Assembly: GCF_034058155.1 (NCBI RefSeq)
Contig: NZ_CP139148.1
Location: 1,674,001-1,738,000 of the forward strand
Reading direction: 5' to 3'
Source: Flavobacterium sp. KACC 22761
GTDB taxonomy: Bacteria > Bacteroidota > Bacteroidia > Flavobacteriales > Flavobacteriaceae
Length of the DNA stretch: 64,000 nt
The translations under genes and the position numbers were made by a program. Shown here piece by piece: positions 23,708 to 64,000 of the stretch (its first letter is position 1; each line of letters begins with the position of its first letter). The notes under the pieces are model-generated. The model saw nothing but the letters and a program-made list of their open reading frames with translations, was not told the DNA's origin and ran no database searches.

Positions 23708-24118
23708 GTCAGGCTGAGCGAAGTCGAAGCCATTTTAAAATTATCTAATTATCATATTCTCTAATTGTCGCATTAATAATTTTTTGAAGCAGAAAATCTC
23801 CGTTTTCAAAAGAAGTAACGTTCCTGCCATCTGCTATATCTTTTCCCTGCTAAAGGAGCAGGAAAAAGGATGCCGCTTCTGTCAGGGCTAACTAGAAAAT
23901 ATCTTTTTCATAAGATTTGAAAGAAACATTAGATATGTCAGGCTGAGCGAAGTCGAAGCCCGCAAAAAGTATGGAATTTAGATTGTCGATCTTCTTTGTG
24001 GTCCTTCGACTTCGCTCAGGATGACATAAAAACGGCATAAAATCAGTGCAAAACAGTTTAAATCTGCTTAATCCGTGCGCCATTTCTAGCGTTCTTAGCA
24101 TGTACCGATAGCTATCGG
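23708..24118 (+). repeat. Dispersed GCGAAGTCGAAG-type repeats in a gene-free stretch
   Basis: The 555 bp between the rplY terminator and pth encodes no credible protein. The same 24-nt unit, containing CTGAGCGAAGTCGAAG, occurs at 23708-23731 and 23937-23960 and inverted at 24001-24025. The last two can pair into a long hairpin. A CCGATAGCTATCGG palindrome lies at 24105-24118. Such units are typical dispersed intergenic repeats of Flavobacterium. Confidence 0.85.
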
Positions 24119-50574: not shown

Positions 50575-50577
50575 AAG

Positions 50578-50651
50578 CTCCCCCTCTTGGGCTCGAACCA
50601 AGGACCCTCTGATTAACAGTCAGATGCTCTAACCAACTGAGCTAAGGAGGA
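50578..50651 (-). tRNA. tRNA-Asn (GTT), copy 1
   Basis: The minus-strand sequence starts TCCTCCTTAGCTCAGTTGG and has the anticodon stem-loop TCTGA-CTGTTAA-TCAGA (anticodon GTT) and T-arm GGTTCGAGCC. It ends AGGGGGAG. The acceptor pairs fully with one U-G. No CCA is encoded. Identical to the copy at 50690. Confidence 0.96.
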
Positions 50652-50689
50652 ATCACCTTAAAGGTAAATATGTTTGCTAAAAAAAGTTG

Positions 50690-50763
50690 CTCCCCCTCTT
50701 GGGCTCGAACCAAGGACCCTCTGATTAACAGTCAGATGCTCTAACCAACTGAGCTAAGGAGGA
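50690..50763 (-). tRNA. tRNA-Asn (GTT), copy 2
   Basis: Base-for-base identical to the copy at 50578-50651, 38 nt upstream of it on the minus strand. Both are probably one transcript ending at 50539-50574. Confidence 0.96.
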
Positions 50764-50849: not shown

Positions 50850-52190
50850 CTACTTCGTAATTGCCTTATAAATATCGTTTCCGTTTGCGAACAAAAGCAA
50901 TGCTATAAGTAGTACAAACCCAACCATTTGGGCGTTTTCAAGGAATTTATCGCTTGGTTTTTTGCCACTAATAATTTCGTATAATAAAAACATCACATGA
51001 CCGCCATCAAGAGCCGGAATTGGCAATAAATTCATTACTCCAAGCATAATTGACAATAAAGCGGTGATTGACCAGAAAGTTTCCCAGCTCCAAGTATCAG
51101 GAAAAACATTGTAAATCGCGGCAAAACCACCTACTTGTTTGTAAGCTTTTGTTTCTGGATTAAAAATCATTTTTAATTGTTTTCCATAACCTACCAAACG
51201 ATCTTTACCTTTCGCAAGTCCAACAGGAATAGATTCCAGAAAAGTATATTCTTTAGTACTTACTTTGTAGTATCCTAGTTTTTCTAATGATTTGATGTCT
51301 AAACCACCAGCAACAACACCTAATGTTCCTTTTGCAGAAACCTTAACTGTGATTGGAGTTTGTTTTAAATCACGCAAAACAACAGCAGGAATTGTTTTTC
51401 CTTTATTTGCACTTAAAATTGATTTAACCTGATCATAATATTTAGCTTCTTGTCCATTTAATGTAACAAGTAAATCTTTTGGTTTAAGCGAAGTGTTTTG
51501 CGAATCATCTTGAATGCTTCCAATGACAAAAGGCATTCGGGTATCGATTAGAAGACCTTTTTCGTGTTTAGATAACTGATCCACAAAATCAGTTGGCATT
51601 TTGATGGTTTTCTGTTGTCCGTTTCTTTCAATTAAAATTTCTTTCGCTACAATAACCTTCGAATTGATATCATTGTCAAAATTTTCAATCTTTTGTCCAT
51701 CAATAGAAATAATTTTATCTCCTGTATGTATTCCAATTTTTTCAATTGCAGGATTAGTTACCCACACACCATCTTTCAAGTCAGTGTTTGCAATGTATGT
51801 ATCGCCATAAACAAAAGCCATTCCTATATAAATAATAAAAGCCAAGATAAAGTTTACGGTAACACCGCCAAGCATAATAATCAAACGCTGCCAAGCCGGT
51901 TTAGAACGAAATTCCCATGGCTGAGGAGGCAAAGCCATTTGTTCTTTGTCCATACTTTCATCGATCATTCCAGAGATTTTCACATAACCACCAAGCGGAA
52001 GCCATCCAATCCCGTATTCTGTTTCGCCGATTTTCTTTTTTAATAGAGAATATTTAACATCAAAAAACAAGTAAAATTTTTCGACTCTGGTTTTGAATAA
52101 TTTAGCAGGGATAAAATGCCCTAATTCATGAAGAATAATAAGTAAAGATAAACTCAATAGAAATTGAGAGAGTTTGATAACTATATCCAT
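50850..52190 (-). CDS. rseP: RIP metalloprotease (site-2 protease)
   Basis: The 446-aa membrane protein has the M50 zinc motif LHELGHFIPAKLF near its N-terminus and the second metal site NLLPIPALDGGHVMFLL near residue 395. Between them are a membrane span and one or two PDZ domains (KDGVWVTNPAIEKIGIHTGDKIISIDGQKI). It cuts anti-sigma factors or signal peptides within the membrane. A TACTTTTG promoter box lies at 52219-52226 on the minus strand. The 299-bp spacer to 52489 otherwise shows nothing. Confidence 0.94.
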   Translation of the reverse strand: MDIVIKLSQFLLSLSLLIILHELGHFIPAKLFKTRVEKFYLFFDVKYSLLKKKIGETEYGIGWLPLGGYVKISGMIDESMDKEQMALPPQPWEFRSKPAWQRLIIMLGGVTVNFILAFIIYIGMAFVYGDTYIANTDLKDGVWVTNPAIEKIGIHTGDKIISIDGQKIENFDNDINSKVIVAKEILIERNGQQKTIKMPTDFVDQLSKHEKGLLIDTRMPFVIGSIQDDSQNTSLKPKDLLVTLNGQEAKYYDQVKSILSANKGKTIPAVVLRDLKQTPITVKVSAKGTLGVVAGGLDIKSLEKLGYYKVSTKEYTFLESIPVGLAKGKDRLVGYGKQLKMIFNPETKAYKQVGGFAAIYNVFPDTWSWETFWSITALLSIMLGVMNLLPIPALDGGHVMFLLYEIISGKKPSDKFLENAQMVGFVLLIALLLFANGNDIYKAITK

Positions 52191-52489: not shown

Positions 52490-52810
52490 ATGAATTTTAT
52501 CAAGCAAATCGAAAGAATGAAAAAGATTCACAAACTAATTTGTGGAGAAAAAACAGGTGCGCCAATTGCTTTTGCTCGAAAACTTCATTTAAGCAGAAGC
52601 CAACTCTATAATGAATTAGAGGTAATAAAAGAACTTGACGCTCCCATTAAATACTGCAAAAAACGAGAAACTTTTTATTACGAAACTCCATTTGAATTAG
52701 TGTTAAGTTATTCGTTCAAAATAATTAAAAATGATGAATCTAAAGAGATTTTTGGTGGCACAAACCTCCGTCCAATTTTATTAGACGGAAGTATGATAGG
52801 TTTGCTATAA
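52490..52810 (+). CDS. Small HTH DNA-binding protein, candidate regulator of the GG-peptide island
   Basis: The 106-aa cytoplasmic protein has an HTH at about residues 25-48 (PIAFARKLHLSRSQLYNELEVIKEL), then a short beta-rich tail ending LRPILLDGSMIGLL. It precedes the first GG-leader peptide pair by 66 nt. Its 3' end contains the inverted repeat and promoter box of that pair. Partial copies of this 3' end precede the other three pairs and the final ABC genes. Regulation of the peptides is inferred, not shown. Family not recognised. Confidence 0.75.
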   Translation: MNFIKQIERMKKIHKLICGEKTGAPIAFARKLHLSRSQLYNELEVIKELDAPIKYCKKRETFYYETPFELVLSYSFKIIKNDESKEIFGGTNLRPILLDGSMIGLL

Positions 52811-52876
52811 CAAAATACTTGTCTACAAAATGATTTTGTTGAAATTTATTAATTAACCATTTAAATTTTTAATGTT
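52764..52876 (+). promoter_or_regulatory. Cassette A: peptide-pair promoter inside the HTH gene 3' end
   Basis: An imperfect inverted repeat (ACCTCCGTC at 52764-52772, GACGGAAGT at 52784-52792) is followed by a TAnnTTTG box, TAGGTTTG (52797-52804), which overlaps the last HTH codons. The leader then runs to the peptide ATG at 52877. Sequence homologous to the same span recurs at 54704, 57433 and 61355. Confidence 0.7.
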
Positions 52877-53005
52877 ATGAATTTGGAAAAAATGAATTTA
52901 GTTGAGCTAAATGCTCAGGAAGTTGAAGAAATTGAAGGAGGTTTTCTTTTAGAAATTCTTGCAGGAATTATCATCGGTGCGCTTGCTTATTTATTAACGA
53001 CGTAA
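52877..53005 (+). CDS. GG-leader peptide A1 (class II bacteriocin-like)
   Basis: A 42-aa peptide. The leader MNLEKMNLVELNAQEVEEIEGG ends in a double glycine with the Leu/Glu spacing recognised by C39 peptidases. The predicted core is 20 residues, very hydrophobic (FLLEILAGIIIGALAYLLTT), with a G-x-x-x-G helix-packing motif. Such cores usually insert into membranes. It is the first of a pair, 10 nt before A2. Confidence 0.85.
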   Translation: MNLEKMNLVELNAQEVEEIEGGFLLEILAGIIIGALAYLLTT

Positions 53006-53015
53006 AAGAAATATT

Positions 53016-53150
53016 ATGATAGATTTAAAAAAATTTGAGGTTGTTGAAATACCCCTAGAACAACAAAAAGAAATTTCAGGAGGATTTATGTGGGGATTAG
53101 CTTTTTTAGTGGCTTTAGGTGTAAGACTCCTTTTAGACGTGCTTGACTAG
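53016..53150 (+). CDS. GG-leader peptide A2
   Basis: A 44-aa peptide with leader ending QQKEISGG and a 21-residue core starting FMWGLAFLV and ending LLLDVLD. The core is amphiphilic at its end and hydrophobic elsewhere. It follows A1 on the same transcript, an arrangement like that of two-peptide bacteriocins. Confidence 0.82.
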   Translation: MIDLKKFEVVEIPLEQQKEISGGFMWGLAFLVALGVRLLLDVLD

Positions 53151-53300
53151 CAATTATAATTGCATAATAGTTAAACTCTCCTTGGTCATTTATTTTAACT
53201 ATTAAATAAAAACTATCCAGTATTTGAATAAAATTTAGTTGCAAAATTTTTCAAAGCTTTATTTTAAATATTGGATAGGATTTTTAAAAATTATTTATAA

Positions 53301-54539
53301 ATGAAATATATTTTTAGTATCATATTTTTTTCATTGTTGTTTATAAGTAATGCACAATCAAAATACTATAATTACAACATTTATGATGGAAAAGATTATC
53401 TATTTACGATGTCTCAAAGCAACGATTTAATGTTGAATTCAATACGATATATTGGGCAGGAAATAAATAATTCAGAAATTACAAAAAAAGAAGAAAAATT
53501 ATATTCAGCGAGTTTGTTGATTTTTACTTCTTTAATTGGACAGGCACTTACACACGAAGCAGGTCATAAATCAGTGCTTTCCGAACTTGGAATTGGAAGC
53601 GTCAGCAAACCATTTTTTGATAAAAATTTAGTTGCAAAAGTAACAGGAGTAACTGATGAGAGTCTGATTAATTTAAGGGATAATAATTTGCCAAATTATA
53701 TAAGACTTCATACAGCGGGATTAGAGTCGGATTATGCTTATTTAAGAAAATCAGATATGTATTTTAATTTTAATGAAGAAAGTTACAAAGTTCTTTATCC
53801 AGACTATTTGATGAGAAAATTAGGAGCTCAATTATATTATTTTAGTTCTTTTTACAATTCGACAACAAGAATTAAGGAAACAGATAGTAAAGAACTTAAT
53901 CGAGATGTCGTCGGAAATGATGTATATGGGATGATCCGTCATTTACATAGACCCTCAATGGAGTTTTATCGTTATACTCAAAGAAAGGATTTAACTGATG
54001 AAGAAAAATCGTACGCTAAGAGGATTGGATATTTTTCATTGATTAATTTTTTAAATCCAAATATTTGGAAGTTGGGAAATTATAAATTGTCAAAAGATGT
54101 AGTAGGCAATTTTTCAGTTAATTACTCTTTAGCTCCATTTGGATATTTTACAGAACAAAATGCATATTTACAAATTAAAGATAAATATAAAATAAATCCT
54201 TATTTCCGTCAATATTTTAATAAAAGCTACACTTTTTTTGCAGGCGGACTTGCTCTGCATAATTATTCTTTTAATGATGAAAAATATTTATTGAATTCTT
54301 CTTTGGATTTTTGGGAGCAGCCAAAAAAATTAGAATTTAGAGCAAAGGAAGCAGAGTTTGGTGTTGGTATAAAATCGGAATTTGCAATTAGATTTTCAAA
54401 AGGAAAAGATGATTCGAAACCAACAACATATTTTAATTTAGGAATGTCATATAAAACAGCGGGTTTTATTCCTGAAGCACCTTCTCTTTCAGAAGATTTT
54501 CAAGTCCATCTAGGAATTATACTATCTGTCAAAAAATAA
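53301..54539 (+). CDS. Exported HExGH zinc-site protein of the GG-peptide island
   Basis: The 412-aa protein has a signal peptide (LLFISNAQ) and a zinc-protease-like motif HEAGH (His85, Glu86, His89) preceded by a hydrophobic helix. A possible third ligand is Glu in HTAGLESDYAYL. The C-terminal 150 residues have alternating beta strands ending LGIILSVKK, like an outer-membrane barrel. I do not recognise the family. A maturation or immunity protease acting on the nearby peptides is one possibility; it lies 150 nt after pair A. Confidence 0.6.
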   Translation: MKYIFSIIFFSLLFISNAQSKYYNYNIYDGKDYLFTMSQSNDLMLNSIRYIGQEINNSEITKKEEKLYSASLLIFTSLIGQALTHEAGHKSVLSELGIGSVSKPFFDKNLVAKVTGVTDESLINLRDNNLPNYIRLHTAGLESDYAYLRKSDMYFNFNEESYKVLYPDYLMRKLGAQLYYFSSFYNSTTRIKETDSKELNRDVVGNDVYGMIRHLHRPSMEFYRYTQRKDLTDEEKSYAKRIGYFSLINFLNPNIWKLGNYKLSKDVVGNFSVNYSLAPFGYFTEQNAYLQIKDKYKINPYFRQYFNKSYTFFAGGLALHNYSFNDEKYLLNSSLDFWEQPKKLEFRAKEAEFGVGIKSEFAIRFSKGKDDSKPTTYFNLGMSYKTAGFIPEAPSLSEDFQVHLGIILSVKK

Positions 54540-54585
54540 GTTATAGAAGATTTCTGGGAAATTTGAAACTATTAAATAAGTAAAA

Positions 54586-54645
54586 ATGAAAGAAATTTCT
54601 ATTGACTCAAAAAAAGTACTTCAGGTATTTTTTGATAAGGAATAA
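54586..54645 (+). pseudogene. 5' fragment of a DUF3267 gene copy
   Basis: The first 11 codons read MKEISIDSKKV, identical in protein to the start of the intact DUF3267 gene at 56387. The frame then diverges and stops after 19 residues. It is a truncated duplicate left by a rearrangement. Confidence 0.7.
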
Positions 54646-54703
54646 TTATTACGTATTTCAGAAATATTTTTAGTGAAAAATAGATAAAAAAAGAAAAGGC
54701 TTT

Positions 54704-54814
54704 ACTCCGTCCAATTTTATTAGACAAAACTCTGATAAGGTTGCTCTAAAAAAATAGTTCTCGAGAAAATGGTTTTGTTGAAAATTTATTAATTAATCTT
54801 TTAAATTTTAAATT
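54704..54814 (+). promoter_or_regulatory. Cassette B: degenerate HTH-3'-end cassette
   Basis: Homologous to cassette A (CTCCGTCCAATTTTATTAGAC at its core) but the right arm is lost (GACAAAACT) and the -7 box is weakened to TAAGGTTG (54736-54743). A TTCTCGAGAA palindrome, shared with cassettes C and D, lies at about 54758-54767. It precedes the two broken peptide genes, so this module seems inactive. Confidence 0.75.
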
Positions 54815-54952
54815 ATGAGTTTACAAGAATTGAATTTAGTTGAGCTTAATTCATAGGAACAAAAGGAATTTGAAGGAGGCTTTTTACCTCTTTTAGCGGT
54901 AGGAGCACTATTGTTATTTACAAGTTGTGTTCCGTGTCCAGCAGATAAATAA
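54815..54952 (+). pseudogene. GG-leader peptide B1, nonsense mutation in leader
   Basis: MSLQELNLVELNS is followed by TAG (54854-54856), then EQKEFEGG and a core starting FLPLLAVGALLLFTSC and ending VPCPADK. In relatives the TAG position is CAG-like (Gln) or similar. Without the stop it would be a normal 45-aa GG peptide. Confidence 0.8.
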
Positions 54953-54978
54953 ATTAATAATCTTAAAAAAATAATAAA

Positions 54979-55132
54979 ATGAATTTAGAAAATTTAAATA
55001 TTGTAGAGCTTAATTTTTCAGAGATAGAAGAAATTGAAGGTGGATTTATACCTCCTTTTGTTAGGAGCATGCTTACTTTTAGGTGGTTGCGTTGCTTATA
55101 AACCAGCGGTTGATCCGGCAAGAGATCGTTAG
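54979..55132 (+). pseudogene. GG-leader peptide B2, frameshifted in the core
   Basis: The leader MNLENLNIVELNFSEIEEIEGG is intact. In frame the core reads FIPPFVRSM and stops at 55101. Shifting frame at the CCTCCTTTT run (about 55053) gives LLLGACLLLGGCVAYK and a stop at 55132, which resembles the B1 core. A one-base indel is the simplest explanation. Confidence 0.8.
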
Positions 55133-55177
55133 TAATTTTGAGGGATTTAAACATCCCTCAATTTATACAATTCTATT

Positions 55178-55768
55178 ATGAATGCAAAAACAATATTAAT
55201 TTGTATTCTGATTTTTATTTCTAGAGTAGCTGACTTGTATACAACACTGCTGGCGGCACAATTTTCGACGAAAAATTTTCATAAAGAAGAACAAAATTTA
55301 ATTGTAAAAATAACTTCAATGAGTATGAAAACATTTTTTATTATGGAAATAATTTTAGCAGGTTTAGTAATAGGATGCTATTTGTTGTATTTAAAAAACA
55401 GGAATTTATTTGAAATAAAAACTTTCAATTTAAAGCAATACATAAACATGTATTTTTTTAATAAAACCACTACTGAAATAAAAGATTGGCTTACTTATAT
55501 TAACTTAAAAAAAATACTTGTTTTGTTTGGTTCTTGTGTGCCAGTTTACATAATAACAACAAGTATTTTGTTTTCATTGAATAACTATTGGGTAAGTTTA
55601 TATAAAGAGAATAATCAGACAGCAATCAAATATTATTTGTCATTAAATAAATATTATTTTTTTGACTTTATAATTTTTGTTTTCCCTATAATATTAATAA
55701 TTCTTTTGTTGATACATAAGTTGGATAATGAATTTGAGAATAACAAAATATCAAAAATGGTCTATTGA
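55178..55768 (+). CDS. Four-span membrane protein of unknown function
   Basis: The 196-aa protein has hydrophobic segments at about 5-25, 52-75, 112-135 and 158-180, separated by basic loops. It ends with a charged tail. No family recognised. It lies 45 nt after the broken pair B and may be an immunity or accessory membrane protein of that module (inference from position). Base composition is very AT-rich like its neighbours. Confidence 0.6.
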   Translation: MNAKTILICILIFISRVADLYTTLLAAQFSTKNFHKEEQNLIVKITSMSMKTFFIMEIILAGLVIGCYLLYLKNRNLFEIKTFNLKQYINMYFFNKTTTEIKDWLTYINLKKILVLFGSCVPVYIITTSILFSLNNYWVSLYKENNQTAIKYYLSLNKYYFFDFIIFVFPIILIILLLIHKLDNEFENNKISKMVY

Positions 55769-55800
55769 AGTTAAGACTTATAATTTCGAAAATAAAAAAA

Positions 55801-55876
55801 ATGTAATGAAAGTGAGTTAAACCAAATAGAAGGAGGGTTTGGGAATTATTCTATGCAATTAAAAAATAAATATTAA
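55801..55876 (+). pseudogene. Degraded GG-leader peptide with start out of frame
   Basis: One frame reads NESELNQIEGGFGNYS and continues to a stop at 55874-55876, but the nearby ATG (55801) is one base out of frame. A single-base deletion would restore MNESELNQIEGG. The stop overlaps the ATG of the following lipoprotein gene (TAATG), which suggests the frame was once translated. Confidence 0.6.
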
Positions 55877-56352
55877 TGTCAATTACTATGGCGTCATATA
55901 CAACAATAATAAAGCTAATTGTATTTTCTTTTGTAATTCTTTTATTGTCTTCGTGCGCCTTAAAAGCAATTCCTTCTCAATATACTCCTGTTAAGGATGG
56001 TTTTGAAAATGTTGAATTAGATAAACTTGGCAATGGGAAAGTCTTGATTTATAATGGAGCAGATATTTTACATAAAATGGATAATACAGCTAGATTGAAC
56101 ATTTGGATAGATAATAATTCTTTAGGGCAATTAAAAGCAAGTGAATATGTCATTATAGATTTGCGCGAGGGAAATTATAATTTTAAAGTTCAACATTTAG
56201 ATATGGTAAATATTCGAAGTAATCATAAGGTTGAAATTGATAGTAAAATAAAAGTCATCAAAATCAAACCGACTATAACTTCAAATAAATTAGAGATTAT
56301 AAATGAGTTGCCTCAGAACTTTAATAAGTTCAGCTATACTAACAAGATATAA
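55876..56352 (+). CDS. Lipoprotein of the GG-peptide island
   Basis: The 158-aa protein has a lipobox (VILLLSSC). The middle part (GKVLIYN, ARLNIWIDNNSLGQLKASEYVIIDLREGNYNFKVQ) resembles DUF2846-type lipoproteins with a small beta-sandwich. A start at ATG 55888 (MASYTT) is also possible. It may be an immunity lipoprotein, as seen in other bacteriocin systems; that is inference. Confidence 0.65.
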   Translation: MSITMASYTTIIKLIVFSFVILLLSSCALKAIPSQYTPVKDGFENVELDKLGNGKVLIYNGADILHKMDNTARLNIWIDNNSLGQLKASEYVIIDLREGNYNFKVQHLDMVNIRSNHKVEIDSKIKVIKIKPTITSNKLEIINELPQNFNKFSYTNKI

Positions 56353-56386
56353 AAAACTGATTTTATCTCCTCCATTTTAATTAACT

Positions 56387-56959
56387 ATGAAAGAAATTTC
56401 AATTGATTCAAAAAAAGTACAATTGTGGGGAATACTAATAAGCATTCCGATTATTTTAGTTTTTCTATTAATCTTGTTTTTTAATTGGGGTGAAGTATTT
56501 AATCAAAATTTAAAAGATATAAAAGCTTCAATTCAAATCTTTGATAGTAAAATAGCAAATACCATTTTAATTTTTTTGGTTCCAAATTTAATCATTTTTA
56601 CAGCCATAATTGTTCACGAACTTATTCACGGTTTTTTTATGGCACTTTTTTCAAAAAAAGGATGGAAATCGGTGAAATTTGGGTTTATAAAAAAGCACTT
56701 AATGCCTTTTGCAAACTGCACAGAACCTTTGAAATCAAAAAAAATGTTGATTGTTTCACTTTCGCCTTTCTTTATATTAGGATTATTACCATCAATTTAT
56801 GGCTTTCTGTTTAAGGATTTGGTTTTTTTATTTATTGGTTTTTCTATGACTTTAGGAGCTGTTGGCGATTTTATTTATGCCTATTTGATATTAAAAGCGG
56901 GTTTGAATCATACATTATTAGATCATAAGAGCCAAGTTGGTTTTATAATCATAGATTAA
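56387..56959 (+). CDS. DUF3267-family membrane metalloprotease-like protein
   Basis: The 190-aa protein has four hydrophobic spans and the zincin motif VHELIHGFF (His77, Glu78, His81). A later GAVGDFIYA segment supplies an Asp, as in the M50-like DUF3267 family (putative zincins). It could process or inactivate membrane-inserted peptides. A truncated 5' copy of the same gene lies at 54586, after module A. Confidence 0.78.
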   Translation: MKEISIDSKKVQLWGILISIPIILVFLLILFFNWGEVFNQNLKDIKASIQIFDSKIANTILIFLVPNLIIFTAIIVHELIHGFFMALFSKKGWKSVKFGFIKKHLMPFANCTEPLKSKKMLIVSLSPFFILGLLPSIYGFLFKDLVFLFIGFSMTLGAVGDFIYAYLILKAGLNHTLLDHKSQVGFIIID

Positions 56960-56970
56960 AAGTATCAAAA

Positions 56971-57216
56971 ATGATTGAACAAAAAAGAAAAATGTCAGTT
57001 CACAAAGGTGGTAAGGAAGAGGCCGTGGTTCTAAAAATGTTATTAGATAGTTTCTCCATTCAGGTCTTTTAAGATTCATCGTTATTGTCTGTTTTTAATC
57101 CGTGGGGAGTTTTGGTTGGGGATGTTGATTCCGTAAAATTAAAGGTAAAAGAAGAAGATTATAATGAAGCAAAGACAATAATTGACAATTATCATTCTGG
57201 GAAATACATCATATAA
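56971..57216 (+). pseudogene. DUF2007-like gene with internal stop
   Basis: The frame MIEQKRKMSVHKGGKEEAVV, followed by LKMLLDSFSIQVF, stops at TAA (57070-57072) and then continues in the same frame to 57216 (DSSLSVFNPWGVLVGDV, VKEEDYNEAKTIIDNY). The whole resembles DUF2007 putative signal-transducing proteins. One nonsense mutation explains the break. Confidence 0.65.
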
Positions 57217-57234
57217 TTTATTATAAATTCTAAA

Positions 57235-57412
57235 TTGAACTACATAAATTTAGGTTCAGATCCAAAAAACAACTTTGAAAATTTTAGCTCATAAAGCAAA
57301 TCCAAAAGCTTTTCAATTCATTTGATTATTCTTTTAACTACTGTCGCTTTTCGAGATTATTGCCAATAATTAAAGTAGATATAAGTAGTTTAAATAAGGA
57401 GTCATTCGGGAT
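57235..57412 (+). pseudogene. 5' remnant of a second hlyD gene
   Basis: Broken frames read LGSDPKNNFENF, then KSFSIHLIILL, then LLPIIKVDISS. They align in order with FSLDPINTLENL, KSFSIYLVIVL and LLPLINIDISS of the intact HlyD at 58029. It carries internal stops and at least one frameshift. It is a decayed start of a duplicated exporter gene, lying just before cassette C. Confidence 0.75.
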
Positions 57413-57432
57413 AAAATAATTTCGGCAGTTTA

Positions 57433-57543
57433 ACTTCCGTCCAATTTTATTAGACGGAAGTCTAATAAGTTTGCTATAACAAAATGTTCTCGAGAAAATG
57501 ATTTTGTTGAAATTTATTAATTAACTATTTTAATTTTAAAATT
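57433..57543 (+). promoter_or_regulatory. Cassette C: promoter of peptide pair C
   Basis: A perfect 9-bp inverted repeat (ACTTCCGTC 57433-57441, GACGGAAGT 57453-57461) with an 11-nt loop, then TAAGTTTG (57466-57473), then a TTCTCGAGAA palindrome and the leader. The HTH coding frame is no longer present upstream; only the 3' end portion is kept. Confidence 0.78.
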
Positions 57544-57693
57544 ATGAATTTAGAAGAATTGAATTTAGTAGAACTTGATGTTCAGGAATCGAAAGAAATT
57601 GAAGGGGGCTTTGGCATATTGTTTATCGCCGCTCATATTTTTGCGCTTGGCGTATATAATGGCTATAAATCAGCAGAAGCTAGTGCTCATTAA
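57544..57693 (+). CDS. GG-leader peptide C1
   Basis: A 49-aa peptide: leader MNLEELNLVELDVQESKEIEGG and a 27-residue core beginning FGILFIAAHIFALGVYNGYK. Hydrophobic first half, polar tail with histidines. First of pair C. Confidence 0.87.
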   Translation: MNLEELNLVELDVQESKEIEGGFGILFIAAHIFALGVYNGYKSAEASAH

Positions 57694-57716
57694 TTAATAA
57701 ATTAATATATATAAAT

Positions 57717-57878
57717 ATGGAAACGAGAGATTATGCAGTTATAGAATTAACTCAAGATGAGATTCAAGAGGTAGAGGGAGGATGGTTGCCAGTTGTTCTT
57801 GGCGGTATAGCCATTGCAGCCGCTGTTTACGGTGCAGGACGTGCTTGTGGGGAAGCTTTATACTATGCAACTCATTAA
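57717..57878 (+). CDS. GG-leader peptide C2
   Basis: A 53-aa peptide: leader METRDYAVIELTQDEIQEVEGG and a 31-residue core beginning WLPVVLGGIAIAAAVYGAG, with one Cys. The Gly/Ala-rich core with GxxxG-like spacing is typical of pore-forming class II bacteriocins. It lies 23 nt after C1. Confidence 0.87.
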   Translation: METRDYAVIELTQDEIQEVEGGWLPVVLGGIAIAAAVYGAGRACGEALYYATH

Positions 57879-57970
57879 TATTTTGAATATAGGGACTAGG
57901 TTCGTGTTTTTTAAAATTCCAAAGTTGAGTGTCATTTTACATAACACTTAATAAATAATATCTGGACAAA

Positions 57971-58010
57971 AACACTACAATGGCTTAAGGCTATTGTAGT
58001 GTTTCTTTTT
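57971..58010 (+). terminator. Terminator after peptide pair C
   Basis: AACACTACAAT (57971-57981) and ATTGTAGTGTT (57993-58003) form a perfect 11-bp stem, followed by a T-rich tract (TTTCTTTTT). It contains the GTG at 57999, which argues against that codon as the hlyD start. Confidence 0.85.
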
Positions 58011-58028
58011 CAAAAGAAAATTACTTTA

Positions 58029-59171
58029 ATGAATTTCAGTTTAGATCCAATAAATACTCTTGAAAATCTTATTAGAAAAAATAAAACAAAGAGTTTTTCA
58101 ATATATCTCGTTATTGTTTTGGCAATTCTAATTTTCTTAGGACTACTTCCTTTAATTAACATAGATATCAGTAGTCAAAGTCGCGGAATAATTCGTAGTA
58201 AAACAGATAATGTTCCTGTTACAACAATTGTGAGCGGAAGGGTTAACTGGATAGCTCTAAAGAACAATATTTTTGTAAAAAAGGGCGATACACTTTTAAA
58301 AATATCCAAAGAAAACCTAGAAAGTGATAAAAGAACTCAAGATATATTATCAAATTCTACTTCTTCCTTGCTAGAAGATATTTCAAATCTTTTACAAAAT
58401 AAAACTTCGCAATTGGAGACTTCTACAGCACGTGAAGATTTATTCAAATTTCAATCAGGAAAAAAGGAACTGCAAAGTAAAATTTCGCAAGCGCAAGTAA
58501 ATTATGATCGCAATAAAATTCTTTATGATAAAGATATTATTGCAAAAGCAGATTTCGAAAAACTGGAATATGAATTACGATTAACCAAGCATTCATTGCA
58601 AAATTATATAAGTCAACAGAAAGCAACATGGGAAAACCAGAAAAGAGATTTGGAAGAACGATTGAAAAATCTTAACGGAACTGTTGCCAAAATAAATGTA
58701 GAGGCAAATAATTATTTTGTTTTAGCACCAATTTCGGGCACTATCGAAAATTATTCTGGAGTTCAAAATGGTTCTTTTATAAATGCGTCACAAGCTGTTG
58801 CGACCATTTCTTCAGCAGATCATCTTATTGTTGAAAGTAATGTCGCTCCCAATGATATTGGTCTGATAAAGAAAAACCAAAAAGTAAAATTTCAATTGGA
58901 TGCATTCAATTACAATCAATGGGGATTGTTGGAAGGAAAGGTAATTGATATCGACCGTAATATTACGATGCAGGGCGATCAGGCTTTTTTTAAGGTGCGA
59001 TGTTCTTTAGATTCTAAAACTTTACGTTTAAAGTCGGGTTACAAAACCGATGTTTCAAAGGGAATGACTTTAACTACAAGATACATAGTTACCCGCAGAA
59101 GTTTATTCGAATTGTTGTTTGATAAAATTGACGATTGGCTAAACCCAAAACAACTACCAAATAGAAAATAA
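58029..59171 (+). CDS. HlyD-family membrane fusion protein of the peptide exporter
   Basis: The ATG at 58029 (MNFSLDPINTLENL) is chosen because the alternative GTG at 57999 lies within the terminator hairpin; this gives 380 aa. One membrane span (about residues 25-45) is followed by a biotinyl-lipoyl-like beta domain, a long coiled coil (about 100-220) and a barrel domain (FVLAPISGTIENYSGVQNGSF). It links the inner-membrane ABC exporter to an outer-membrane channel. Its stop is directly followed by the ABC ATG. Confidence 0.9.
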   Translation: MNFSLDPINTLENLIRKNKTKSFSIYLVIVLAILIFLGLLPLINIDISSQSRGIIRSKTDNVPVTTIVSGRVNWIALKNNIFVKKGDTLLKISKENLESDKRTQDILSNSTSSLLEDISNLLQNKTSQLETSTAREDLFKFQSGKKELQSKISQAQVNYDRNKILYDKDIIAKADFEKLEYELRLTKHSLQNYISQQKATWENQKRDLEERLKNLNGTVAKINVEANNYFVLAPISGTIENYSGVQNGSFINASQAVATISSADHLIVESNVAPNDIGLIKKNQKVKFQLDAFNYNQWGLLEGKVIDIDRNITMQGDQAFFKVRCSLDSKTLRLKSGYKTDVSKGMTLTTRYIVTRRSLFELLFDKIDDWLNPKQLPNRK

Positions 59172-61322
59172 ATGGCCTCGATAAAAATAAAACAACACGA
59201 TATTAAAGATTGTGGTGCAGCTTGTTTGGCATCTATTGGAAATCATTTCAAAGTTAATCTGCCCATAGCAAGGATACGTCAATACGCTAATACTGATAAA
59301 CGAGGCACTAATGTTTTAGGGATAATTGAAGCAGCTGAGAAAATGGGATTTACTGCAAAAGGAGTAAAAGGCGGTTTAGATTCTTTAGATAAAATTCCGC
59401 TTCCTGCTATTGCTCATATTATTACAAAAGAGCAGTTGCATCACTATGTGGTCATTTATAAGGTTGAAAAAAACGCCATTACAGTTATGGATCCGGGTTT
59501 GGGTAAAATGGAAACTTATACTATTGAAGATTTTCAAAAAATATGGTCAGGTGTTTTAATTCTTTTTGCGCCAAATGATGATTTTAAAATTAAAAACGAA
59601 AAAACTTCTCCAATAAAGAGATTTTGGAATTTAATTCAGCCACATAAAACTATTTTAATTCAGGCTCTAATTGGTGCCATTGTATTTACGGTTTTGGGAT
59701 TGGCAATGTCAATTTATATTCAAAAAATAACAGACTATGTTTTGGTTGATGGAAATAGAAATCTGCTCAATTTGCTTAGTGTTTCCATGATCGCAATTAT
59801 TCTTTTGCAAGCTTATATTGGTTCAAAGAAAAGTATTTTTGTAATGAAAACGGGTCAATTAATTGATGCCAAATTAATTTTGGGTTATTATAAACATTTG
59901 CTTCACCTGCCTCAGCGATTTTTTGATACGATGCAGATAGGAGAAATCACTTCTCGTATAAACGATGCTGTAAAAATTCGTTCTTTTATAAATGAAACGG
60001 CTATAGAAATGATTGTAAATGTCTTTATTGTCATTTTTTCATTTGCTTTAATGTTTACGTATTATTGGAAATTAGCTTTGGTCATTATTCTTGTAATTCC
60101 ATTTTATACATTGATTTATTTTCTCCTAAATAATTTCAACAAAAAAGTAGAACGAAACATTATGGAAAATGCCGCCGAATTACAAACCCAATTAGTAGAA
60201 AGTATCACACATGTAAGAACAGTAAAAGAATTTGGAATAGAAGATTTTTCAAATCTAAAAACAGAAAATAAATTTGTAAAACTTTTATTTACAACGTATA
60301 AATCTGGTTTAAATGTTGTTTTTGCTTCAACTTCGACGCAATTTTTGGCTTCTGCTTTTACCGTAATCTTAATGTGGATTGGTTCAGGATATGTAATTGA
60401 TAGAGCTATTACTCCAGGAGAATTATTTTCTTTTTATGCTTTAATAGGATATTTTACCTCGCCCGTAGCGTCTTTAATTGGTATGAATAAAACCGCACAG
60501 AATGCATTAATTGCTGCTGATAGGCTTTTTGAAATTATGGATTTAGAAAGAGAGGAAACGGAAAATAAGATCGAACTGCAAAAAGAAAACCTAGGAGACA
60601 TAAAATTTGAAAATATCTCATTCCGTTATGGATCTCGTATAGAGGTTTTTAAAAACTTTAATGCAGTATTTAAAAAGAATGAAACTACAGCCATAGTTGG
60701 AGAAAGTGGCAGTGGGAAAACAACTTTGATTTCTTTGCTTCAAAATTTATACCCAATAAAAGAGGGCAAAATTTTAATTGGGGAATATGATACTAAATTT
60801 ATTCACTATAAGAGTTTGCGTCAAATGATTGGAGTTATCCCACAACAGCTTAATTTATTTTCGGGGAATATTATCGAAAATATTGCTTTGGGAGATTCAT
60901 TTCCAAATATTCAAAGAATTTTAGATTTATCCCAACAATTGGGAATTACAGAGTTTGTAGAAAAACTTCCAAACGGTTTTGAAACGCAGATTGGTGAAAA
61001 CGGAGCAATGCTTTCTGGAGGACAAAAGCAAAGAATAGCTATTGCAAGAGCTATATATAAAAACCCTGAAATTTTATTGCTGGACGAAGCAACGTCATCA
61101 TTGGATACTAATTCAGAAAAAATTGTAAAAGGAGTTATTGATAATTTTAAATCACAGGGAAAAACGATTATAGTTATTGCGCATCGTTTAAGTACAATTG
61201 CAAATGCTGATACAATTTTGGTAATGAAAGAAGGAAATATTGTTGAATCTGGAAATCATTTGGATTTATTGGAACAAAAATTAGAATATTTTAATCTTTG
61301 GAATAAACAGAATTTACTTTAA
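59172..61322 (+). CDS. C39-peptidase ABC exporter for GG-leader peptides
   Basis: The 716-aa protein joins an N-terminal C39 cysteine peptidase (Gln8, Cys14 in KDCGAACL, His91 in LHHYVV, Asp107 in VMDPG), a membrane domain of about six spans (170-440) and an ATPase domain (Walker A GESGSGKTT about 510, signature LSGGQKQR about 613, Walker B ILLLDEAT, H-loop VIAHRLS). It cuts leaders after GG and exports the cores. All catalytic residues are intact, so the system should be functional. Confidence 0.95.
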   Translation: MASIKIKQHDIKDCGAACLASIGNHFKVNLPIARIRQYANTDKRGTNVLGIIEAAEKMGFTAKGVKGGLDSLDKIPLPAIAHIITKEQLHHYVVIYKVEKNAITVMDPGLGKMETYTIEDFQKIWSGVLILFAPNDDFKIKNEKTSPIKRFWNLIQPHKTILIQALIGAIVFTVLGLAMSIYIQKITDYVLVDGNRNLLNLLSVSMIAIILLQAYIGSKKSIFVMKTGQLIDAKLILGYYKHLLHLPQRFFDTMQIGEITSRINDAVKIRSFINETAIEMIVNVFIVIFSFALMFTYYWKLALVIILVIPFYTLIYFLLNNFNKKVERNIMENAAELQTQLVESITHVRTVKEFGIEDFSNLKTENKFVKLLFTTYKSGLNVVFASTSTQFLASAFTVILMWIGSGYVIDRAITPGELFSFYALIGYFTSPVASLIGMNKTAQNALIAADRLFEIMDLEREETENKIELQKENLGDIKFENISFRYGSRIEVFKNFNAVFKKNETTAIVGESGSGKTTLISLLQNLYPIKEGKILIGEYDTKFIHYKSLRQMIGVIPQQLNLFSGNIIENIALGDSFPNIQRILDLSQQLGITEFVEKLPNGFETQIGENGAMLSGGQKQRIAIARAIYKNPEILLLDEATSSLDTNSEKIVKGVIDNFKSQGKTIIVIAHRLSTIANADTILVMKEGNIVESGNHLDLLEQKLEYFNLWNKQNLL

Positions 61323-61354
61323 AGATTATTAATGAAGAAAAATAAATGCGTTTA

Positions 61355-61463
61355 ACTTCCGTCCAATTTTATTAGACGGAAGTATGATAAGTTTGCTATA
61401 ATAAAAACGTTCTCGAGAAAATGATTTTTGTTTTAAATTATTAATCATTTAAATTTTAAAGTT
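61355..61463 (+). promoter_or_regulatory. Cassette D: promoter of peptide pair D
   Basis: A perfect 9-bp inverted repeat (ACTTCCGTC 61355-61363, GACGGAAGT 61375-61383), TAAGTTTG (61388-61395) and the TTCTCGAGAA palindrome, closely matching cassette C. Confidence 0.78.
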
Positions 61464-61601
61464 ATGAATTTAGAAGAATTGAATTTAGCAGAGCTTAATG
61501 TTCATGAAGTCCAAGAAGTTGAAGGGGGTTGTCCAGTTTGTTTGTATTTACAGTGTGAATCACATGTAAAAGATTTTTTAAGAGGATTGTTTGACTTATA
61601 A
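61464..61601 (+). CDS. GG-leader peptide D1, Cys-rich core
   Basis: A 45-aa peptide: leader MNLEELNLAELNVHEVQEVEGG and a 23-residue core starting CPVCLYLQCES. The core opens with CxxC directly after the GG site and has a third Cys. This sets pair D apart from the hydrophobic pairs A and C. Confidence 0.85.
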   Translation: MNLEELNLAELNVHEVQEVEGGCPVCLYLQCESHVKDFLRGLFDL

Positions 61602-61614
61602 ATTTGAATAAATT

Positions 61615-61740
61615 ATGCTAGTAGAATTAAAAAACACAGAATTGGTTGAGATTAATGGAGGTTGTCAAGATTGTTACGATAATGGCGCTAAATTAAGAAA
61701 ATTAATAGGTATTGCTTGGGATGTTCTCATGGCTATTTAA
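61615..61740 (+). CDS. GG-leader peptide D2, Cys-rich core
   Basis: A 41-aa peptide with a short leader (MLVELKNTELVEINGG) and a 25-residue core starting CQDCYDNGAKL. As in D1, CxxC follows the GG site immediately. It lies 13 nt after D1. Confidence 0.8.
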   Translation: MLVELKNTELVEINGGCQDCYDNGAKLRKLIGIAWDVLMAI

Positions 61741-61748
61741 ATAAATAT

Positions 61749-61778
61749 AGAGGTTGTCTTAACAACCTCTTTTTATTT
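61749..61778 (+). terminator. Terminator after peptide pair D
   Basis: AGAGGTTGT and ACAACCTCT form a perfect 9-bp stem with a 4-nt loop, followed by TTTTTATTT. Confidence 0.85.
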
Positions 61779-61798
61779 GCTCAACTTAAATAAGAAAA

Positions 61799-62464
61799 AT
61801 GAACTATAGAAGTACAATTAATTACAGCTTAAAAGAGAAAGTACTAAAAGTAATAACTTCATATTTACTAGGTTTAAGTTTAATTATTATTACAGTATTA
61901 GTAATAATCTTGCCTCTCGATTTTATTATTACTAAATATCTTCATTTTGAATCTGTCAAAGAATTAATACATCAAACACAAAACAAATATGTTAAGTATC
62001 CTTTTTATATAACTGTCTTTATAGGTCCTATTATTGAGGAATTATTGTTTCGGTTATGCTTAATAGTTAACAGAAAAAATATCTCAATTTTTACAGGTTT
62101 TTTTTTGCATGAAATATTACGAAGACGTTTTATAAAACTAAATTTTCATGATGAATTATATTTCTATATAATTTTAATTGGTGTTTTTACTTTTTTACTT
62201 ACATGGAAATTTTTGACTCCAACGATTATTAATTCTATTGACAAGAAGCAAAATTGCTTAGTTTGGATTTCAATAATATTTTTTGGATTAATACATATTA
62301 CTAATATTAAGATTCTGCATTGGGAATTAGCGTTGTTTTATCCTTTTTATGTAATACCCCAAATGATCATGGGGTATTTTATTACTAATTTAAGATTAAA
62401 ATACGGTTTTTTATGGGGTCTGTCTTTGCATTCACTATTTAATTTTATTGCAATTATTATATAA
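61799..62464 (+). CDS. CPBP-family intramembrane metalloprotease
   Basis: The 221-aa membrane protein has the CPBP motifs: EELLFR (Glu80, Glu81, Arg85), FGLIHITN (about 163-170) and HSLFN near the C-terminus. CPBP (Abi) proteins are often bacteriocin immunity proteins or peptide-processing enzymes. It follows pair D after a terminator, so immunity to these peptides is a reasonable inference. Confidence 0.83.
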   Translation: MNYRSTINYSLKEKVLKVITSYLLGLSLIIITVLVIILPLDFIITKYLHFESVKELIHQTQNKYVKYPFYITVFIGPIIEELLFRLCLIVNRKNISIFTGFFLHEILRRRFIKLNFHDELYFYIILIGVFTFLLTWKFLTPTIINSIDKKQNCLVWISIIFFGLIHITNIKILHWELALFYPFYVIPQMIMGYFITNLRLKYGFLWGLSLHSLFNFIAIII

Positions 62465-62536
62465 TCAGAAATAAATTAGAAGCAACATTATTTTATTTAA
62501 ATGAAAATAAGAGTTTCATATTAACTGTAAAAAAAT

Positions 62537-62734
62537 ATGTCAAAATATAAACTAACTAAAAATGAAAGTCAAAGGATTGGAAAAGGGAAAAATGAAAATA
62601 TAATTTTCAATATTATTCTTTTCATTTTTCTATTAGTTGTTTTTTTTAAATGGAATTCAATTGACGACTTTTTTAATCATTTCTTTTTTTTTGGCGACTT
62701 CAAAATAAAAATTATCACATTCGTTATGTTATAG
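62537..62734 (+). CDS. Small putative membrane protein
   Basis: A 65-aa frame with a basic, polar N-terminus (MSKYKLTKNESQRIGKGKNEN) and a hydrophobic segment (IIFNIILFIFLLVVFFKW). The sequence is very AT-rich, so the frame could be chance. Its location fits a small immunity or accessory peptide. Family not recognised. Confidence 0.4.
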   Translation: MSKYKLTKNESQRIGKGKNENIIFNIILFIFLLVVFFKWNSIDDFFNHFFFFGDFKIKIITFVML

Positions 62735-62786
62735 TATTTATTAATGTTTAAAAAATAGCAGACTATACTAAAAAATATTTTTTTAA

Positions 62787-62900
62787 AGTAATATTAAGTT
62801 TTCTCTGAAAACGATAAAAGATGATGAATCAAAAGAAATTTTTGAAGGCTCAAACTTACGTCCAATTTTATTAGACGGAACTATAATTGTTATGACTTAA
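62787..62900 (+). pseudogene. Cassette E: 3' fragment of the HTH regulator gene
   Basis: The frame KTIKDDESKEIFEGSNLRPI, then LLDG, aligns with KIIKNDESKEIFGGTNLRPI then LLDG of the intact regulator. No start and no HTH remain. The inverted repeat is imperfect (CTTACGTC / GACGGAAC) and the -7 box is lost. No GG peptide follows. The permease starts at 62916 in the same frame. Confidence 0.78.
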
Positions 62901-62915
62901 CTACTAAGAAAAAAA

Positions 62916-63818
62916 TTGACCACAATCCTAAATTACTTGTTCCTGATCCGGTTTAGAAAATTAGTTTCTAAAGGCGATAATCTGGCAATATTTTTAATAG
63001 TACTTCTTTATTTAACAGTTGCATTTTTGATTTTTAAAAATTATGATTCCTTCAGAAATTACGTTCCCTTTCTTTTTGTCGATATTATAATTTATCATTT
63101 GCAAAGGTCAGATTTGGAACTTTTAAAAATGAAGAGAAATTATAAAGTAATCTTATTTACAGAATATATTATTTATTCATTTCCATTTTATCTGGTGCTT
63201 TTATTAAAAAGAGAGTTTGTTCCTATTGCGATAATTATTTTGTTTAAAATAGCATTGATTAGCGTACCTAGATTCAATCTCAAAATCATAAAATATCCTT
63301 TTGATACCTTTAATATTTACTGGCATATTTCTTTCAGAAAATACAAGATCATTTATATTCTTCCAGTATTGATTCTGGTCATTTTTATGGCAGTAAACAG
63401 CAATAATCAAAATCTTCAGTATGCCGTTTTTCTGGGTTTGTCTGTAATTGCTTGTGTTCCTTCATTCGAAAGAGAACAAATTGAAGAGATAAAGCAAAAT
63501 CCGTTTGATGCCGTAAAATATGTAAGATATCAGTTTAAAAATTCAATTATAAATACCGCTTATTTAATATTTCCAATAGCAATAACATTGTCTTTTTTAT
63601 TGCAATGGGAAAAAATGATATTCTTGATTTTTATATTTATAGCGCCTCTTTATAATCTGTTGTTAAAGTATATTTGTTTTAATAATAGCTTGTTACAGCA
63701 GATTTTCTTTGCCATTTTTATTACCGGAAGTATATTTTTATTTGGAGTTCCTTTTTTAGCGACGCCCATTATCTATAAAAAAGCGATTAAAACTTTAAAA
63801 CAATTAAAGGCATGCTAA
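62916..63818 (+). CDS. ABC transporter membrane subunit
   Basis: The 300-aa protein has about eight hydrophobic spans. The start is TTG 62916; no in-frame ATG occurs before residue 73, and an in-frame stop lies 16 nt upstream. The next gene, an ABC ATPase, overlaps its end by 7 nt, so the pair forms a transporter. It probably exports or removes peptides as a resistance pump, or takes part in secretion. Confidence 0.75.
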   Translation: MTTILNYLFLIRFRKLVSKGDNLAIFLIVLLYLTVAFLIFKNYDSFRNYVPFLFVDIIIYHLQRSDLELLKMKRNYKVILFTEYIIYSFPFYLVLLLKREFVPIAIIILFKIALISVPRFNLKIIKYPFDTFNIYWHISFRKYKIIYILPVLILVIFMAVNSNNQNLQYAVFLGLSVIACVPSFEREQIEEIKQNPFDAVKYVRYQFKNSIINTAYLIFPIAITLSFLLQWEKMIFLIFIFIAPLYNLLLKYICFNNSLLQQIFFAIFITGSIFLFGVPFLATPIIYKKAIKTLKQLKAC

Positions 63819-64000
63819 GGATTACTATTGATCAAAAGAAATACAAGGATAAATCGATATTAGAAAACATTAATATTATTATCTATCAACCAGGAATTTA
63901 CGGTGTTGTTGGGAAAAATGGTCAAGGCAAAACCACACTTTTTAAATGTATCGTAGGTTTAGAGAAGTTTAAAGGAAGTTGTTTTATAAATGATGAAAAG
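63812..64000 (+). CDS. ABC transporter ATPase, N-terminal part
   Basis: The 63 visible residues include the A-loop region and the Walker A motif GKNGQGKTTLFKCIVGL. The gene continues past the window edge. It overlaps the permease gene by 7 nt, a sign of coupled translation. Confidence 0.88.
   Translation, partial: MLRITIDQKKYKDKSILENINIIIYQPGIYGVVGKNGQGKTTLFKCIVGLEKFKGSCFINDEK

Follow-up and report, generated by a model that had tools for sequence, protein, structure and literature searches.

The last part of a 64,000-nucleotide stretch of the Flavobacterium sp. KACC 22761 genome (positions 1674001-1738000 of a single 5.04-Mb contig; this whole stretch is called the window below) carries an island of small double-glycine (GG) peptide genes that, judged from its sequence, is probably a chromosomal class IIb-type bacteriocin/immunity locus built of cassettes around one shared exporter. 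The island extends from position 52490 to 444 bases past the end of the window; its left neighbor is rseP (50850-52190, minus strand), and its right neighbor is an OYE-type oxidoreductase gene that begins just beyond the window (L009:1477; L numbers designate compared sequences). All island features described below lie on the plus strand. The gene order is as follows: a regulator candidate, peptide pair A, an HExGH protein, the broken pair B, and a membrane protein of 196 amino acids (aa); a leader remnant, a lipoprotein, a DUF3267 protein, an interrupted DUF2007-like gene, pair C, HlyD, and a C39-ABC exporter; and finally pair D, a CPBP protein, a 65-aa open reading frame (ORF), a regulator-tail fragment, an ABC permease candidate, and an ATPase. 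An earlier note, made from the sequence alone, had proposed a multipair secretion system with immunity candidates. The GG leaders, the C39 and HlyD proteins, TIGR03949 matches (A1 and C2), GxxxG motifs, and the linkage of peptide cores to accessory genes support that proposal, for three live pairs and not for four.

Pairs A, C, and D each consist of two ORFs of 41 to 53 aa with a double-glycine leader, encoding the precursors A1 (52877..53005; core FLLEILAGIIIGALAYLLTT) and A2 (53016..53150; core FMWGLAFLVALGVRLLLDVLD), C1 (57544..57693) and C2 (57717..57878), and D1 (61464..61601; core beginning with CPVC) and D2 (61615..61740; core beginning with CQDC). The leaders in the window are 16 to 23 aa long, and the six intact cores hold 0 to 3 cysteines. 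TIGR03949 was matched by A1 at 22.2 bits (cutoff, 21.5) and by C2 at 29.5 bits. A looser scan for GG leaders found all six intact peptides, and a stricter one found five, A2 being missed. Across the 11.6-kb island, the stricter scan returned eight matches (the five intact peptides, the broken B2, and two false matches, one within the regulator and the other within a membrane protein), against a chance expectation of 0.18 matches per shuffle (200 mononucleotide shuffles). Pair B, which the earlier note had counted as a fourth pair, is dead: B1 (54815..54952) is interrupted in frame by a TAG at codon 14, ahead of the GG, and B2 (54979..55132) loses its frame right after the GG. An intact pair homologous to B is present in F. 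resistens (L016:7010 and L016:7173). Further downstream, a GG-leader remnant (ESELNQIEGG, 55799..55876) lacks a start codon. The ratio of nonsynonymous to synonymous substitution rates (dN/dS) was 0.13 to 0.28 for the A and C peptide genes compared with L017 and L031 and 0.16 for the D genes compared with L029; relative to L015, the D genes show too few changes to judge.

The view that the peptides always come two per module did not hold in relatives. A first set of 97 peptide groups, from 68 of 81 loci, comprised 51 pairs, 42 singles, and 4 triples, and 56 groups from 51 held-out loci (78 fetched, 27 duplicates dropped) comprised 26 pairs, 21 singles, 8 triples, and 1 group of five. A recurrent single GG peptide with a GTHxAY-like C terminus, which has the regulator ahead of it and an ABC permease and ATPase behind it, was seen in L017, L020, L034, L047, L052, and L076; from its sequence, it is a candidate pheromone. 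GxxxG motifs were counted over 50 pairs, one dubious pair being left out. They occurred in 30/50 first cores (shuffled mean, 13.9) and 28/50 second cores (shuffled mean, 15.0); both cores carried the motif in 22 of the 50 pairs, compared with a shuffled mean of 5.0, a count unreached in 1,000 shuffles. In the window, both C cores contain strict GxxxG motifs, and the A cores contain one strict and one loose motif. Both D-type peptides (window 61464-61740; L015, L029, and L149) instead have a CxxC motif directly after the GG, beginning CPVC and CQDC also in the L149 pair; this could possibly form a metal site or disulfides.

The HlyD-family adaptor (380 aa, 58029..59171; Pfam HlyD_3, 1.4e-16) and the C39 peptidase/ABC exporter (716 aa, 59172..61322; Peptidase_C39, E value of 1.2e-37) are both intact ORFs with Pfam matches, as had been claimed. 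The exporter scored 512.6 bits against TIGR01193, slightly under the cutoff of 523.85. The description of a single dedicated exporter holds for the island, and not for the genome, in which four further C39-type exporters were found by alignment span. One of these four, at contig positions 1104174-1106287 (L003 and L011), has its C-terminal part in another frame and lies near two GG peptides with another type of leader (MKKLELIQMEN.GG).

Each of the pairs A to D is preceded by an element of about 105 bp belonging to one repeat family (copies at 52766..52872, 54705..54811, 57435..57541, and 61357..61463, respectively). With up to 3 mismatches allowed, the 22-base core of this element has four matches in the 5.04-Mb genome, and each stands ahead of one of the pairs; copy A has an altered palindrome core with 3 mismatches to the core pattern. 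The element contains an inverted repeat (TTCCGTC..GACGGAA), a TAnnTTTG motif, which we take to be the Bacteroidota -7 box, and a dyad with the arms AACAAAA/TTTTGTT flanking the palindrome TTCTCGAGAA. The TAnnTTTG motif is altered in copy B, and the dyad is altered in copy A. In other genera, different palindromes, such as GTGCAC, TGCGCA, ACGCGT, and CTGCAG, stand before the first peptide. A role of the dyad as a hairpin in the 5' untranslated region or as a repressor/operator site is not claimed: its scores are modestly above those of shuffled sequences (median best score, 7.2 versus 6.0; 23 of 96 starts exceed the 95% point of the shuffles), and its spacing varies in an alignment of 49 rows hand-chosen from 58 found among the 96 starts. 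No Rfam family reached the cutoff at the element. Copy A lies in the 3' end of the gene for the regulator candidate (106 aa, 52490..52810), which resembles a helix-turn-helix protein by eye only and had no match in Pfam or NCBIfam. A regulator-tail fragment of another repeat family (62801..62901) marks the place where a single-peptide cassette would begin, and no peptide was found at this fragment.

The island is an insertion at an otherwise empty chromosomal site. In a survey of 121 genomes of the genus for both flanking genes, rseP was matched in 108 and the OYE-type gene in 84, of which 57 were carried over by hand and weaker matches were dropped; the comparison covered the 56 in which rseP was accompanied by an orthologue-like match to the OYE gene. 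The two genes share a contig in 55/56 genomes and lie within 20 kb in 54. The gap between them is empty (89 to 638 bp) in 43/54 genomes, contains HlyD in 8 (own genome included; 4.7 to 12.3 kb), and measures 1.8 to 17.5 kb without HlyD in 3. The gap of 12.3 kb in the window's genome is the longest that bears HlyD. An exporter-based scan retained 80 loci from 390 related stretches. By a distance rule, rseP lies upstream and OYE downstream in 22/80 loci, and a regulator homologue precedes the exporter in 21 of these 22; the window fails the rule solely because its OYE gene is outside the window and rseP is 8 kb away. Many other Flavobacterium exporter loci adjoin AraC-type and subtilase genes. 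HlyD was found in 39/299 genomes of the genus at an E value of ≤1e-60, four of the 39 having just 33 to 34% identity, and the exporter was found at ≤1e-200 in 31/397 genomes of the family and 23/395 of the order (overlapping samples, own genome counted). Plasmid-borne relatives of the exporter (311 records, E value of ≤1e-100) all have less than 60% identity and thus lend no support to a recent origin from a plasmid. Two tRNA-Asn genes (50577-50763) lie near the insertion site on the far side of rseP.

Comparison with related loci suggests that cassettes travel between species. The D cassette is nearly identical at the nucleotide level to a cassette of Flavobacterium sp. ASV13 (L015), with 99% identity for the pair, 98% for the CPBP gene, and 96% for the 65-aa ORF (62537..62734), which travels with it. 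The flanks are less similar (rseP, 92%; regulator, 80%; HlyD, 82%; C39, 86%; OYE, 89%), and in L015 the cassette lies upstream of HlyD, whereas in the window it follows the exporter. Diversification of the peptides in situ, as had been proposed, fits these data less well than import and turnover of cassettes because a cassette in another species, at another position, is almost the same as D. The B-type gene for the 196-aa protein is 95% identical to that of F. resistens (L016), compared with 81% for HlyD; this case is weaker because rseP is also 93% identical. In L017 and L020, the A-type cassettes with an HExGH protein are found downstream of the exporter; here only the position differs, their identity of 77 to 84% being no closer than that of the flanks. 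The upstream element and the conserved first leader make homology available, and homologous recombination through these shared segments may be how cassettes arrive and change position.

Each core family tends to keep a particular accessory gene. Cassettes with the same core shared an accessory cluster in 59/105 comparisons, whereas 500 shuffles gave a mean of 7.6% and a maximum of 20.8%. Candidates for immunity genes accompany pairs A, B, and D. The A-type accessory is the HExGH protein (412 aa, 53301..54539), which occurs with the same core family in the window, L017, L020, and L030. Its AlphaFold model (pLDDT, 90.2) has a signal peptide, a helical HEAGH domain, and C-terminal strands that are called only barrel-like because no fold in the PDB matched at an E value of ≤0.001 (the best were porins, E value of 5.5e-3, TMq of 0.24). 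The protein is present in 5/299 genomes of the genus; there are 383 homologues, and the 120 listed are unnamed, hypothetical, or uncharacterized except for one labeled "outer membrane protein beta-". The B-type accessory is the intact 196-aa membrane protein (55178..55768; dN/dS of 0.17), which has no family match in Pfam or NCBIfam, and the D-type accessory is a CPBP/Rce1-like membrane protease with an EELLFR motif (221 aa, 61799..62464; Pfam, 23.5 bits, cutoff of 22.4), linked to D-type pairs in the window, L015, and L029. Of 100 accessory ORFs of at least 100 aa, 93 were scanned, and 7 were omitted as distant or housekeeping-like. At an E value of ≤0.001, 28/93 matched CPBP, 10/93 DUF3267, and 10/93 ABC ATPases, and membrane-protease families were matched by 38/93 accessories. 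With a length cut of 120 to 450 aa and relatives that are not independent, HExxH motifs were present in 14/93 accessories versus 38/644 other ORFs, and EExxxR motifs were present in 22/93 versus 31/644.

Several accessory-type genes in the window are intact although their peptides are gone: the 196-aa protein, the lipoprotein-like protein (158 aa, 55876..56352), the DUF3267 putative zincin membrane protein with a HELIH motif (56387..56959; Pfam, 84.3 bits), and the ABC permease candidate (62916..63818; start TTG, or ATG at 63129; no family match) with its ATPase (63812..64000, continuing beyond the window to L009:1444). In other loci, the scan placed counterparts after peptides for DUF3267 in 10/12 cases and, for the permease/ATPase after a single peptide, in 10/14 loci; the lipoprotein-like protein follows a single GG peptide in L028 and L033. 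The dN/dS values of the four orphan genes are 0.08 to 0.17. These orphans fit an immunity role, without proving it, because immunity genes would persist after loss of the toxin. A fragment of a DUF3267 gene start (54577..54619; 88% match to 56378-56420) and the interrupted DUF2007-like gene (56971..57216; 14.5 bits, below cutoff), whose relatives of 81 to 86 aa follow DUF3267 elsewhere, lie nearby. The earlier note had passed over these two features, the leader remnant, the regulator-tail fragment, and the part of the island outside the window.

A cassette would comprise an upstream element with a promoter-like motif, a single GG-leader peptide or two of them, and then usually a specific accessory gene. 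From the protein families and leaders, one HlyD/C39-ABC pair is predicted to process and secrete all precursors, and the GxxxG motifs suggest that the exported pairs may insert as helix pairs into the membranes of related bacteria. The accessory proteins (CPBP, DUF3267, HExGH, and others) would degrade or sequester the peptides and so shield the producer. In the window, the peptides of B and of at least two other cassettes are gone, and their putative immunity genes remain. Several observations weigh against this model. Pair C has no recognizable immunity gene, and the D cores lack GxxxG; the GxxxG figures moreover overstate the evidence because shuffling breaks the local composition of the cores and the relatives are not independent. 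Of the seven precursors scanned, only A1 and C2 passed TIGR03949, the other five being below cutoff or without a match, and all matches to Pfam Bacteriocin_IIc were below cutoff. The mean net charges of the cores are about -0.5 and -0.3; the best-known two-peptide bacteriocins are cationic. Finally, the scan found no peptide in 13/81 exporter loci, some of which are on short contigs.

Other functions of the island were weighed against the bacteriocin/immunity model. The membrane proteases might be processing or export factors rather than immunity proteins; PMC9298176 is concerned with the part of a CAAX protease, SilX, in bacteriocin production of Streptococcus anginosus. This is unlikely here, given that accessory families differ by cassette whereas all cassettes share an exporter that brings its own C39 peptidase, that pair C stands without a protease, and that the window's DUF3267 protein, lipoprotein, and permease persist though their peptides are gone. 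Some or all of the peptides might also be pheromones, with the single-peptide cassette, ABC permease/ATPase, and regulator acting as a sensing unit. Together with accessory clusters cl13/cl10, the single peptide is found repeatedly between Flavobacterium and Capnocytophaga (L076), in several loci with the regulator nearby, and in blp a GG pheromone shares its exporter with bacteriocins, according to the accessible part of PMC4860687. A signaling function is nevertheless quite unlikely in view of the high diversity of the pair cores between species, each with specific accessory genes; in addition, no histidine kinase or response regulator match was obtained among the island proteins scanned, and the window has lost the single peptide.

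GG leaders and C39 exporters serve modified peptides too, and the CxxC motifs in both D cores would be compatible with precursors of ribosomally synthesized and posttranslationally modified peptides. Such products are highly improbable: no Pfam modification enzyme was detected among ten island proteins and none was recurrent among the 93 accessory ORFs, to which the search was confined. Pair B and the last cassette are broken, as is the DUF2007-like gene, and one leader survives as a remnant; this could indicate a decaying relic that has lost expression. Against this very doubtful interpretation stand the three intact pairs, the intact adaptor and exporter, and dN/dS values below 1 for peptide and accessory genes compared with relatives, though this divergence may largely predate recent decay.

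Regarding self-protection within the bacteriocin/immunity model, C-type pairs in relatives (L024, L031, L014, and L029) are followed by small leaderless ORFs whose C termini resemble the cognate core, and similar small ORFs follow unrelated pairs in Capnocytophaga (L076), Cruoricaptor (L068), F. davisii (L056), and others. These decoy-like ORFs encode leaderless membrane peptides of 33 to 49 aa. With noncognate cassettes as the control (smallest attainable P value, about 0.014), 7/42 cassettes of the first set gave a P value of ≤0.02 and 16/42 gave ≤0.05; in the held-out set, the signal was weaker but positive (5/30 and 7/30). Two of the matches were false, a GG peptide in the held-out L146 and a DUF2007-like ORF or fragment in the first-set L047. 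For both sets together, the sense strand gave 11/75 (≤0.02) and 22/75 (≤0.05), compared with 2/78 and 2/78 for the antisense strand. A 20-by-20 permutation of decoys and cores had a trace of 953, compared with a maximum of 725 in 20,000 permutations; it is partly circular because the 20 ORFs were chosen for similarity, and the held-out and antisense tests carry the weight. The own core ranked first for 12/20 decoys, second for 6, and fifth for 2. A positive N-terminal side was present in 19/20 of these ORFs and a strict GxxxG in 16/20. Coding constraint is not uniform because, in nine comparisons, dN/dS was 0.20 to 0.25 in three (one with a dS of 2.3) and 0.47 to 1.07 in five, with one saturated and unusable. 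The decoy peptide of L031 had no match in the window's genome, an empty answer that is in itself uninformative. Further decoy-like ORFs, some two or three together, were counted in 20 loci irrespective of a matching pair. The loci L014, L018, L062, L065, L066, L161, and L163 each hold two or three such small membrane ORFs without a leader.

From these sequence comparisons, decoy-type immunity is proposed tentatively for many Bacteroidota pairs; taken as a whole, the following steps are somewhat less than probable. A leaderless peptide of 33 to 49 aa with a single transmembrane segment would copy the C-terminal portion of the cognate bacteriocin, stay in the inner membrane of the producer, and poison helix pairing or receptor binding. 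Decoys would change with their toxin and might accumulate before HlyD as a resistance bank against the peptides of other strains. The C pair of the window may have lost its decoy; no decoy-like ORF was found in four translated intervals, where the top score of 42 came from an antisense frame broken by stops. Gallocin A offers a structural precedent: its small immunity peptide, GIP, is encoded after the GG pair, and modeling showed it to mimic the structure of the bacteriocin (PMC10100652). CbnZ has 42 aa and one transmembrane segment with its N terminus inside (PMC6957408, in the part available). Unlike GIP and CbnZ, the Bacteroidota ORFs resemble the cognate core in sequence, accompany several unrelated core families, and often occur two or three together.

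The island resembles the pneumococcal blp locus in several respects. As far as the accessible part of PMC4860687 goes, blp combines several GG bacteriocins, CAAX and other membrane immunity genes, and a common ABC exporter, its content varies strongly between strains, and immunity genes outnumber bacteriocin genes. In contrast to blp, the island belongs to a Gram-negative phylum, its cores stay tied to their own accessory genes, the accessories include DUF3267 and HExGH barrel-like proteins, and relatives carry decoy-like peptides; within the ten island proteins, to which the search was confined, no two-component system or GG pheromone was matched. Bacteroidetocins share the phylum, the GG leader, and an exporter with a double-glycine peptidase domain, and are described in the available part of PMC6671954 as single peptides with a leader of 15 to 16 aa, four cysteines, and a thiol oxidoreductase, no immunity protein having been found. 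The present system has pairs, leaders of 16 to 23 aa, an HlyD adaptor, and cassette-specific immunity candidates, and no thiol oxidoreductase was matched among the ten island proteins. The island is not a bacteroidetocin locus; leader length alone would leave D2 (16 aa) in. The Caulobacter Cdz system is likewise Gram negative, two component, and bacteriocin-like, with type I secretion, glycine-zipper motifs, and a small membrane immunity protein, CdzI, but it consists of one pair of 84- to 86-aa proteins with CdzC surface aggregates, and no cassette array is described in the accessible part of PMC5380434.

Among the literature matches listed, with subscription papers and preprints outside the scope, there was no report of such systems for Flavobacterium, Chryseobacterium, or Bacteroidetes and nothing on mimic immunity but GIP. 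The island would extend cassette-swapping, multipair bacteriocin/immunity loci, best known from pneumococci and lactic acid bacteria, to Flavobacterium and the wider Bacteroidota and make many natural core/accessory combinations around one exporter available for comparison. Producer survival is described as poorly understood for two-peptide bacteriocins (PMC6957408 and PMC8538875, in the parts available), and the question of self-protection can be tested directly on the cores, membrane proteases, and decoy-like peptides that nature provides here as a series. Elsewhere in the window, a Flavo-1 RNA (RF01705) is located at 23816-23893 on the minus strand.

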